In this document: one piece after another, positions 2,783 through 40,812 of the stretch
Layout of the letters: each line of letters opens with the position of its first letter
Numbering within the stretch: position 1 is the first letter of the stretch
Assembly: GCA_001771585.1 (NCBI GenBank)
Contig: MEUE01000003.1
Span: 434,001-498,000, forward strand
Source of the DNA: a candidate division WOR-1 bacterium RIFOXYB2_FULL_46_45
GTDB lineage: Bacteria > Margulisbacteria > WOR-1 > XYC2-FULL-46-14
Reading direction: 5' to 3'
Length of the DNA stretch: 64,000 nucleotides
The notes under the pieces: generated by a model
The model's database searches: none
The model's input: only the letters and a program-made list of their open reading frames with translations
Told to the model about the DNA's origin: nothing
Made by a program: the position numbers and the translations under genes

Positions 2783-3334
2783 TTATTCAACGACAAAACC
2801 GAATTTTCCCTTTGGCTTACTTTCCACTTCAATCAGCTTTCTAATTGCCTCAAAAACCTGCTGTATCTGCACTTCGTTCTTTTTAAGCCTTTTCTCAAAT
2901 TTATTTTCAAGCTGATCCACTTTTTGCGCTAAATCCTTATGCGTTGCCATGATTTTTCTTAATCTGACAAACGCCCGCATTATGGCGATATTGACCTGGA
3001 CGGCTCTCTCGCTTTTAAGAACAGAAGACAACATTGCAATTCCTTGTTCTGTAAAAACATATGGAAAATATCTCCGTCCTCCCTTCTTTGAGGTCACAAA
3101 TTGTGACCTCAAGTTTGATGTTCCAAATTGGAACTTCAAGTTTTTAAATTCCGCCTTATTTAATTGAAACATAAAGTCATCAGGAAAACGGCTCGTATTC
3201 CTTTTTACTGCTTGATTTAATGCTTTGGTTTCAACCCCATAAAGCTCGGCCAAATCCCTGTCCAACATTACCTTCTGTCCCCTAATCAAATAAATCTTGT
3301 TCTCGATCCTCTCAATAGGCACTAAATTTGTCAT
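2783..3334 (-). CDS. ORF6N domain DNA-binding protein, copy 1
   Basis: The N-terminal part ([19 protein letters not shown], then [20 protein letters not shown] and FPDDFMFQL) is the ORF6N domain found in phage antirepressor-like and mobile-element regulators. The middle holds a 9-residue tandem repeat (LKFQFGTSN / LRSQFVTSK) before [14 protein letters not shown]. The C terminus is a charged coiled coil ([17 protein letters not shown]). The start chosen is the internal ATG at 3334 because AAGGAGG lies 8 bases before it. A longer frame to 3367 has no such site. A second copy follows at 3488-4027. The role is unknown; DNA binding is inferred from the family. Confidence 0.85.
3090..3137. repeat. 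Two 21-bp palindromes with 27-bp period inside ORF6N copy 1
   Basis: At 3090-3110 there are 10-base arms (GAGGTCACAA / TTGTGACCTC) around one central base. At 3117-3137 there is a second 21-bp palindrome built the same way around TTCCAA-A-TTGGAA, with one arm mismatch. Each lies in one 9-codon unit of the tandem peptide repeat. Confidence 0.8.
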
Positions 3335-3487
3335 ATTATTATCCTCCTTATACGGGAGTACCAGCAATTTTGCCGCCTGATTTTAGGGTTTTGGGTGTGG
3401 ATGCCGGCCTGCCGGTCAGATGACCAGAATATCAGAATATCAGAAAAAAAGTGTTTGTCGCTGAAAGAGCAATAAGAACGCTTCAAG

Positions 3488-4027
3488 CTAAACAAACCCA
3501 TATTTTTTAGGCGGGGATTCCGGCGGCAGCATTAGTTTTTTGATGGCATCAAAAACAATCTGGATTTGGATCTCATCCTTTTCGAATCTTCTTTCAAACT
3601 TATTTTCAAGCTGATCCACTTTTTGCGCTAAATCTTTATGCGTTGCCATGATTTTTCTTAATCTGACAAATGCCCGCATTATGGCAATATTGACCTGGAC
3701 GGCTCTTTTACTTTTTAAAACAGAAGATAGCATGGCAACTCCTTGCTCTGTAAAAGCATAAGGGGAATACCTTCTGCCTCCTCGTTTTGAAGTCACAAAT
3801 TGTGACTTCAGGTTTGAGGTGACAATTTGGCACCTCAAAAATTCTTCTTTGGTAAGCCGGAACATAAAATCAGGAGGAAAGTTGTCCTTATTTCTATTAA
3901 CCTGCCTTTTTAAATACTTTGTCTCTACTCCATAAAGAATTGCTAGATCAAAATCAAGCATCACCTTTTGCCCTCTAATAAGATAAATTTTATTTTCAAT
4001 CCTCTCAATCGGCACTAAATTTGTCAT
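3488..4027 (-). CDS. ORF6N domain DNA-binding protein, copy 2
   Basis: This is a paralogue of the gene at 2783-3334. It shares the same N terminus through GQKVMLD, the same [14 protein letters not shown] core and the same coiled coil, and differs mainly in the DNA-contact segment ([17 protein letters not shown]) and at the C terminus. The 5' flank, including the AAGGAGG site and about 20 bases beyond, is also nearly identical in both copies, so the duplication included the promoter region. The start is again the internal ATG with the ribosome site. Divergence concentrated in the recognition part suggests that the two proteins bind different sites. Confidence 0.85.
3789..3836. repeat. Two 21-bp palindromes with 27-bp period inside ORF6N copy 2
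   Basis: At 3789-3809 the arms are GAAGTCACAA / TTGTGACTTC around one base. Relative to copy 1 the third base of the left arm and the matching base of the right arm changed together. At 3816-3836 there is a second inverted repeat with arms GAGGTG / CACCTC. The spacing of 27 bases is the same as in copy 1. Confidence 0.8.
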
Positions 4028-4135
4028 ATTATTATCCTCCTTATACAGGAATACCAGCAATTTTGCCGCCTGATTTTTGCGAATATTTTTTGATCATAAA
4101 TCGAGGGGTGTCGAAATTTCGGACAGTTTGGGCTA

Positions 4136-4171
4136 AATTAATACCCCACATTTAAATGTGGGGTATTAATT
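4136..4171. repeat. Perfect 36-bp palindrome
   Basis: The segment is its own reverse complement over 36 bases, with centre TTTAAA and arms containing TACCCCACA / TGTGGGGTA. A related 20-bp palindrome lies between dnaK and dnaJ (40785-40804). It stands between the ORF6N and DUF4145 genes, transcribed away from each other, so it cannot simply be a terminator of either. Confidence 0.85.
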
Positions 4172-4252: not shown

Positions 4253-4279
4253 TTAGCACTCCCATTGATTGAGTGCCAA
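4253..4279 (+). promoter_or_regulatory. CIRCE-like operator (HrcA site)
   Basis: TTAGCACTC (4253-4261), nine bases, then GAGTGCCAA (4271-4279). The CIRCE consensus is TTAGCACTC-N9-GAGTGCTAA, so there is a single mismatch. The perfect version is found in front of hrcA at 37598. The -35 box of the DUF4145 promoter lies within the spacer, so HrcA binding would block it. Confidence 0.85.
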
Positions 4280-4293
4280 TTATCTGATATAAT
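4265..4293 (+). promoter_or_regulatory. Sigma70-type promoter of the DUF4145 gene
   Basis: TTGATT (4265-4270), a 17-base spacer and TATAAT (4288-4293). It overlaps the CIRCE-like operator. Confidence 0.75.
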
Positions 4294-4320
4294 TTATGCA
4301 ATTAAAAAAAGGAGAAAGCC

Positions 4321-4920
4321 ATGAGCACAATCAATTGGGAACAATTGTCTAGCATTAGCTCGAGAAAATATGTATGTGGATATTGCAATAACCCCCTAGC
4401 CTCTAACAGAGGATATTTTGGGCATGACACAAATAGTCCCGTAATAAATAATACTTTTATTTACATCTGTCACCAATGTAATAAACCAACATTCTTTGAT
4501 ATCTCAGGGAACCAAACTCCTTGTACTACCTATGGTGAGGAAATAAATGATATTTCTTCCGAAGAAGTAGCACTTCTTTATAATGAGGCAAGGAATTGTA
4601 TGGGCCGTAGAGCTTATACTGCCGTTGTTCTCTGTTGTAGAAAGTTATTGATGAACATCGCTGTTTCAAAAGGGGCAAAAAAAGGACTGAGCTTTATTGA
4701 GTATGTAAAATATTTATCTGATCAAAACTATATTCCTCCTGATGCTAAAGACTGGGTTGATCACATTCGAAACAAAGGCAACGAAGCAAATCATGAAATT
4801 AGTATAATGAAAAAAGAAGACGCTGAAGATTTGATCAATTTTATTGGTACGCTGTTAAAAATAATCTATGAATTCCCCTCCGTTATCAAACAAAGAATAT
4901 CTGGAGCACAAAAACCATGA
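4321..4920 (+). CDS. DUF4145 domain protein with N-terminal zinc ribbon
   Basis: Residues 19-54 contain CGYC and CHQC, a four-cysteine zinc ribbon. Residues about 80-185 (EARNCMGRRAYTAVVLCCRK, then HIRNKGNEANHE) form the alpha-helical DUF4145 domain, which is often found in restriction or phage-defence loci and in regulators of unknown biochemistry. The ribosome site AAAGGAG is 6 bases before the ATG. The promoter carries a CIRCE-like HrcA operator, so induction by heat or protein stress is expected. The stop overlaps the start of a 57-codon gene (ATGA). The base composition is more AT-rich than that of the neighbouring operons, which hints at an accessory origin. Confidence 0.8.
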   Translation: MSTINWEQLSSISSRKYVCGYCNNPLASNRGYFGHDTNSPVINNTFIYICHQCNKPTFFDISGNQTPCTTYGEEINDISSEEVALLYNEARNCMGRRAYTAVVLCCRKLLMNIAVSKGAKKGLSFIEYVKYLSDQNYIPPDAKDWVDHIRNKGNEANHEISIMKKEDAEDLINFIGTLLKIIYEFPSVIKQRISGAQKP

Positions 4921-5090
4921 CATTTCAAAAACCAATTTGTTTTTTAATTTTTGGTATTTATACTATTACCATGATGGGCGATTCGATTATTAAACAAGTT
5001 CCTATGGAACTTGATGACGGGATTACCCCAATATTTGCAACAGCGGTATCAGGAACAACAACCTCTTTCTCTGTAAATTTTACTTTATAA
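4917..5090 (+). CDS. 57-residue hypothetical protein coupled to the DUF4145 gene
   Basis: The ATG overlaps the TGA of the DUF4145 gene (ATGA), a typical sign of translational coupling. The peptide starts with a hydrophobic stretch (ICFLIFGIYTITMM) and continues with a polar part ending in TSFSVNFTL. It could be a small membrane-anchored or exported partner; I do not recognise a family. If the operon reading is right, it shares the CIRCE-controlled promoter. Confidence 0.5.
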   Translation: MTFQKPICFLIFGIYTITMMGDSIIKQVPMELDDGITPIFATAVSGTTTSFSVNFTL

Positions 5091-37568: not shown

Positions 37569-37598
37569 TTGACAACCCGCAAAACCCCATGCTACAAT
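37569..37598 (+). promoter_or_regulatory. Promoter of the hrcA-grpE-dnaK-dnaJ operon
   Basis: TTGACA (37569-37574), 18 bases, TACAAT (37593-37598). The last base of the -10 box is the first of the CIRCE operator. Confidence 0.85.
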
Positions 37599-37624
37599 TA
37601 GCACTCAAAGGGAGAGAGTGCTAA
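37598..37624 (+). promoter_or_regulatory. CIRCE operator, perfect consensus
   Basis: TTAGCACTC, nine bases, GAGTGCTAA, ending one base before the hrcA ATG. This is the binding site of HrcA and shows heat-shock control of this operon. Confidence 0.95.
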
Positions 37625-37625
37625 A

Positions 37626-38336
37626 ATGACACCGGAACTGAATAATCGAAAAAACCGCATATTAAAGGCGATCATCGACGACTATATCGACACCGCCATC
37701 CCGGTGGGATCGCGTACTATCTATAAAGAATACATCCAGGATTTCTCCCCCGCCACCATCAGGAATGAGATGGCCGATTTGGAAGAAGAAGGGCTGATTG
37801 AACAACCCCACACCTCCGCCGGGAGGATCCCAACCGACAGCGGCTACCGCCATTTTGTCGACAATATAATGAAAGCAAAACATCTCTCTATTAAAGAGAA
37901 AGAGCTGATCAAAGAGATCGCCTACAACATCAAGCAGGACTTTGACGACGCGCAGGATTCGATCTCACGGATGTTTTCGGAACTGCTCAATTATTTGACC
38001 GTCGTCGTATCTCACAAAAAACAGACCCCCACCACCTCCTATTCCGGAATGTCGCACATGATCAGGCAGCCGGAATTCAAAGATATCGAAAAGACACGGA
38101 AGATCATTGAACTTATCGAACACAAAGAATCCTTGACCGGACTGATCGACGATTACGCCAGGGAAAAAGAAGATTTTAACGTAAAAATAGGATCGGAGAA
38201 CAAAACCAGGGAATTCAAGGAGTATTCGGTCATCGTTACCAACATCAGGAACATTGAAATCGGCATCATCGGCCCGACCAGGATGTCCTATTCCAAAATC
38301 GCCGCTTTGTTCGATTTTTTAAATCAGGAGTTTTAA
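37626..38336 (+). CDS. hrcA: Heat-inducible transcription repressor HrcA, short form
   Basis: The winged-helix domain (PVGSRTIYKEY, SPATIRNEMADLEEEGLIEQPHTSAGRIPT) is well conserved, as is the end (GIIGPTRMSYSKIAALFDFL). The middle dimerisation/GAF-like part is reduced, giving 236 residues against about 340. It represses its own operon, and probably the DUF4145 gene at 4321, through CIRCE. grpE follows directly after the stop with no gap. Confidence 0.95.
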   Translation: MTPELNNRKNRILKAIIDDYIDTAIPVGSRTIYKEYIQDFSPATIRNEMADLEEEGLIEQPHTSAGRIPTDSGYRHFVDNIMKAKHLSIKEKELIKEIAYNIKQDFDDAQDSISRMFSELLNYLTVVVSHKKQTPTTSYSGMSHMIRQPEFKDIEKTRKIIELIEHKESLTGLIDDYAREKEDFNVKIGSENKTREFKEYSVIVTNIRNIEIGIIGPTRMSYSKIAALFDFLNQEF

Positions 38337-40782: not shown

Positions 40783-40784
40783 TA

Positions 40785-40804
40785 CCCCATATTTAAATAT
40801 GGGG
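40785..40804 (+). promoter_or_regulatory. Perfect 20-bp hairpin covering the dnaJ ribosome site
   Basis: CCCCATATTTAAATATGGGG is fully self-complementary. The 3' GGGG, continuing GGGGAAG, is the only ribosome-site-like sequence before the dnaJ ATG (40813). In RNA it would be paired with CCCC. The AU-rich stem could open on heating. Confidence 0.55.
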
Positions 40805-40812
40805 AAGATGTA

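Follow-up and report, generated by a model that had tools for sequence, protein, structure and literature searches.

A DUF4145 gene placed under a CIRCE operator is described here as a real and unusual arrangement that is seen in one genome. CIRCE is among the most conserved of bacterial operators and is nearly confined to chaperone genes. Within the window (the whole 64,000-nucleotide stretch analysed, C3:434001-498000 of a 1.70 Mb genome in four contigs), a CIRCE site lies 41 bp upstream of a 199-codon gene (4321..4920, + strand). Pfam, alignment and model assign to its product a four-cysteine zinc ribbon (C19, C22, C50, C53) and a DUF4145/HEPN-like helical domain (residues 80-195).

The operator occupies 4253..4279 (+ strand) and reads TTAGCACTC-CCATTGATT-GAGTGCCAA. 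By pattern scanning with the CIRCE consensus TTAGCACTC-N9-GAGTGCTAA, it was identified as a predicted HrcA binding site whose sole deviation is a T>C change in the right arm (GAGTGCCAA), in agreement with the original prediction of a CIRCE one base off consensus. Exactly three CIRCE-like sites with up to three mismatches exist in the whole genome: a perfect copy before groES-groEL, another perfect copy before hrcA-grpE-dnaK-dnaJ, and the one-mismatch copy before the DUF4145 gene. From base composition, 0.0015 sites with at most one mismatch are expected by chance in 1.7 Mb. In addition, a reversed control pattern gave no match with two or fewer mismatches in 95 related genomes, 68 of which were matched by the true pattern. 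The same one-base arm variant is present at the genuine hrcA operators of three genomes of the same order (L096-L098). Functional Mycoplasma CIRCE sites have at most two mismatches (PMC5138195), and the present site falls within a limit of about that number. Furthermore, HrcA is encoded in the same genome (hrcA from 37626), with matches to Pfam HrcA and to TIGR00331 (215 bits against a cut-off of 197). Since a match of this quality greatly exceeds chance and the genome encodes the repressor, 4253-4279 is taken as a predicted operator that is real in this statistical sense.

The position of the operator differs from that found at the chaperone operons. Promoter comparison places a -35 box, TTGATT (4265..4270, + strand), inside CIRCE, and an extended -10 box, TGA-TATAAT (4285..4293, + strand; TATAAT at 4288-4293), 8 bp downstream of it. 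With a 17 bp spacer and TATAAT preceded by TG, the promoter scores 10 of 12 matches, so that a clear promoter with its -35 box enclosed by the operator is found where one had been claimed. A Shine-Dalgarno-like AGGAG (4310..4314, + strand) stands 6 nt before the ATG at 4321. At the groESL and hrcA promoters, TTGACA ... TACAAT is followed immediately by TAGCACTC, and CIRCE covers the transcription start and leader; the perfect reference site of this kind in the window (37598..37624, + strand, by pattern scan) directly follows TTGACA/TACAAT and precedes hrcA-grpE-dnaK-dnaJ, with the hrcA start at 37626. Whether CIRCE lies over the -35 box or after the -10 box, RNA polymerase would be blocked from either position. 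Outside the CIRCE arms, the sequences before the DUF4145 gene and before the chaperone operons are unrelated. These differing flanks, together with the different placement, rule out copying from a chaperone promoter, and the DUF4145-gene CIRCE therefore arose or arrived independently.

The rarity of CIRCE outside chaperone genes, also part of the original prediction, is upheld by the annotated CIRCE loci of related genomes, 45 of 46 of which precede groESL or hrcA/grpE/dnaK. The single exception (L101 in genome G008) has no recognisable chaperone. The search that had been proposed as a check, for CIRCE before DUF4145 genes elsewhere, showed no operator near the gene in more than 40 loci from phages, plasmids and genomes. 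Import of CIRCE together with the gene from phages is likewise unsupported, since no homologous locus examined carries the operator. With none at the other DUF4145 loci and nearly all CIRCE sites at chaperone operons, the arrangement is therefore, as read from sequence, one case, in one genome, of a mobile defence-type gene captured by predicted HrcA control.

Comparison with known CIRCE targets clarifies what is unusual about the locus. Like the class I heat-shock operons (groESL, hrcA-grpE-dnaK-dnaJ), it has the same operator laid on a promoter in a genome with HrcA, but it differs from them in its non-chaperone cargo, in having the operator over the -35 box rather than after the -10 box, and in that the site is seen in a single genome. 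Non-chaperone targets have been described in the secretion effector gene wcw_0502 of Chlamydiota, with HrcA ChIP (PMC12038028), and in rpoH of Geobacter (PMC545781). The DUF4145 gene resembles both in that CIRCE precedes a non-chaperone gene, whereas its product is unrelated to theirs; moreover, the wcw_0502 site is kept across its relatives, and the present one is seen in one genome.

The identification of the product as a DUF4145 zinc-ribbon protein holds. The DUF4145 family (PF13643) was matched in Pfam over residues 88-174 (E 1.6e-12; 47.8 bits against a gathering cut-off of 23.1). In an alignment with 16 homologues that are 32-53% identical to it, the zinc-ribbon cysteines C19, C22, C50 and C53 are invariant across all 17 sequences, as are Y87, E89, R91, R107, K108, R150, G153 and H158. 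An earlier study assigned DUF4145 to the HEPN superfamily and noted zinc-ribbon fusions and restriction-modification neighbours (Anantharaman et al., 2013, PMC3710099); the present protein shares such a fusion. Its AlphaFold model, of moderate confidence (pLDDT 68), combines N-terminal strands with a C-terminal helical bundle, and the best Foldseek neighbours are nearly all HEPN proteins, among them MntA-HepT (HepT toxins), Csx1-Crn2 and TM0613 (E 0.03-0.5). For this query of pLDDT 68, the HEPN matches have probabilities of up to 1.00 and a best E of 0.027, with none reaching E 0.001. Altogether, the Pfam match, the predicted helical bundle with HEPN neighbours and the invariant R150 and H158 link the protein to the HEPN/DUF4145 family, from which it differs in having R150-x7-H158 instead of the Rx4-6H motif, with both residues invariant in 17 of 17 sequences. 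Because the R-to-H spacing of seven is one residue longer than the motif allows, RNase activity is plausible rather than established. For PDB 9y9c, a 24-chain DUF4145 assembly that is a distant match (E 5e-7), no literature was found.

The relatives of the gene point to phage defence. The PADLOC profile of PD-T7-4 was matched by all 17 aligned sequences; for the DUF4145 protein itself, the match extends over residues 12-184 of 199 and profile positions 9-179 of 211 (E 3.2e-8). PHROG 1305 was also matched (E 2e-24). PD-T7-4, a single-gene system, was obtained in E. coli by experimental selection for phage defence; it often overlaps an integrase gene (Vassallo et al., 2022, PMC9519451). The DUF4145 gene resembles it in the profile match over most of its length and in being a small single gene in mobile surroundings; on the other hand, it is divergent in sequence, belongs to a host of another phylum, lies under CIRCE and has a defence role that is predicted. 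Most of the 17 aligned sequences occur in phages, prophages or plasmids, and the closest homologues come from phages, phage-like plasmids or other plasmids, mostly at 40-53% identity. Several phage homologues sit before terminase genes, and an Ornithinibacillus homologue lies 193 bp before hsdM. A four-sequence profile scan of named genomes returned only four loci, all in Bacilli. The earlier idea of a stress or defence pair is thus retained in part: the PD-T7-4 and HEPN links, the phage and plasmid context and hsdM argue for defence, while the pair is lost with its unsupported 57-codon partner. No defence link was found in the literature combining CIRCE with phage or toxin-antitoxin systems. 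Adjoining the DUF4145 gene on the minus strand is a tandem pair of ORF6N-domain genes that resemble each other (2783-3367 and 3488-4060) and match the PADLOC candidate defence family PDC-S05 with E values down to 6e-63.

The gene was probably acquired from elsewhere and sits in a slot of variable content on a contig that is genuinely chromosomal. It is absent from all eight other same-order genomes examined, so that the refuting condition of the original prediction, loss of the site in close relatives retaining the gene, meets no such relative among them. Genome G001, from the same family, keeps the flanking sulfhydrylase-like gene, one ORF6N gene (in the same place) and a zinc-ribbon gene, but has unrelated ORFs in the slot corresponding to the DUF4145 gene. 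The gene looks foreign in both codon usage and AT content: its GC is 34-36%, whereas values beyond 5.2 kb are mostly 41-52%, and it has a codon score of -0.03, below that of native genes (0.12 +/- 0.10 for 57-codon pieces). As a separate observation on this region, the palindrome AATACCCCACATTTAAATGTGGGGTATT (4140-4168 and 40783-40806) recurs, slightly altered, at about a dozen genomic positions; one copy separates the ORF6N gene from the divergent DUF4145 gene, and another lies between dnaK and dnaJ.

With slightly better than even confidence, we favour an acquired HEPN-type defence or dormancy effector that is repressed by HrcA and released together with the chaperones when GroEL is occupied. 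HrcA requires free GroE to be active (PMC3842655). While GroEL is free, HrcA would sit on CIRCE over the -35 box and block RNA polymerase; once GroEL is taken up with misfolded protein, owing to heat, other proteotoxic stress or possibly phage assembly, HrcA would become inactive, and the DUF4145 protein would be made together with GroESL and DnaK. It would then act as an effector of the HEPN type, encoded by a single gene in the manner of PD-T7-4: the zinc ribbon may sense a target, either nucleic acid or protein, or dock on it, while RNA may be cleaved or bound by the HEPN-like helical domain, which would slow translation. Accordingly worded, the DUF4145 protein is probably made when the proteins of the cell are in trouble. 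The analysis shows the operator and its uniqueness, the promoter, the presence of the regulator, the domain make-up, the foreign origin and the mobile relatives with links to defence; HrcA binding, induction, RNase activity and the defence role are all steps that we infer. Points against this explanation are the occurrence in one genome, the placement of CIRCE over the -35 box, the lack of CIRCE near the other DUF4145 loci examined, the R150-x7-H158 spacing, and the moderate confidence of the model (pLDDT 68), for which no structural match reached E 0.001.

The wider meaning suggested by this CIRCE-wired defence-family gene is that acquired immunity genes can come under the control of protein-folding stress, so that a potentially toxic product stays switched off as long as the cell is not in difficulty. 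It leads to the prediction that GroEL occupation by phage should induce the DUF4145 gene. A bolder version, which we hold to be improbable, makes the heat-shock repressor of the host an infection sensor: a phage drawing GroEL for its assembly would inactivate HrcA and switch the effector on. If true, the trigger of immunity would be the occupation of a chaperone and not a phage molecule. No literature report was found of an HrcA response to GroEL titration by phage.

The strongest competitor, credible although clearly less likely, keeps HrcA control and gives the product the role of a stress or protein-quality factor, for instance one that turns over RNA or damps translation in heat-shocked cells, and assigns it no anti-phage role. 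The almost purely chaperone content of CIRCE regulons elsewhere (the 45 of 46 sites above) is in its favour, as is the proposal (PMC3710099) that certain HEPN proteins slow translation in stressed cells, yet the close homologues are found mostly in a mobile or defence context, all of them match the PD-T7-4 profile, and no homologue examined is under CIRCE. We regard as quite unlikely that CIRCE is a coincidence or relic, with the repeat bound by another regulator or left unbound and the gene driven by its strong extended -10 promoter. The confinement to a single genome, the unusual position over the -35 box, the recent acquisition of the gene and its CIRCE-free relatives would all fit such an account; against it stand the chance rate of about 0.0015 per genome, calculated before any promoter position is required, and the fact that genuine hrcA operators in the order tolerate the same mismatch.

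The downstream ORF of 57 codons (4917..5090, + strand) is a doubtful gene and is left out of the system. Its start overlaps the DUF4145 stop (ATGA), a possible ribosome site, GGAG, lies 10 nt before it, and its codon score falls between coding and non-coding. The coupled small hydrophobic partner of the original prediction finds no support in homology: searches of its own genome, phages and plasmids gave no homologue, on which ground a conserved partner is rejected, and homologous DUF4145 loci carry no related overlapping ORF, the one present in phage KC5a being unrelated. A co-induced toxin-antitoxin or effector-partner pair, to which the overlap, the ribosome site and the intermediate codon score would be suited, is consequently very improbable, given this lack of homologues or of a conserved small partner and given that about 3% of shuffled sequences contain an ORF of this length.

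Several further observations were made on CIRCE in other genomes. At the exceptional locus of the same-order genome (G008:C58:3184), the one-mismatch CIRCE has no recognisable chaperone gene on either flank, and about 43 bp from it there is an ORF of 43 codons that begins with a signal-like stretch. In one family of the order, groESL is preceded by two CIRCE copies about 62 bp apart (L088, L089 and L090 in G002, G007 and G005, respectively), the upstream copy having one to three mismatches. In viral contigs, CIRCE stands before groES at 20 sites and also precedes about 22 Hsp20 genes. About 22 viral contigs carry CIRCE, perfect or as the one-base variant, in most cases 20-35 bp upstream of an Hsp20 gene of phage-like type (L116, L125, L137, L143, L147, L158, L166, L170, L181, L190, L192, L208, L225, L226, L231, L234, L250, L263 and L266, among others); one such Hsp20 matches Pfam HSP20 with E 6e-17. 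Phage genes seem, from the viral contigs with CIRCE, to have been placed under host HrcA. Literature linking cyanophage, CIRCE and hsp20 together was not found.

The repressor itself also deserves mention. HrcA of the host genome (37626-38336) has only 236 aa, and its match to the Pfam HrcA C-terminal profile begins only at position 87. A relative in the same family has an HrcA with 81% identity. The HrcA match is continuous in the host and in same-order genomes, and consists of two pieces with a long gap in other HrcAs of the phylum. The order seems to have a shortened HrcA without a middle part.
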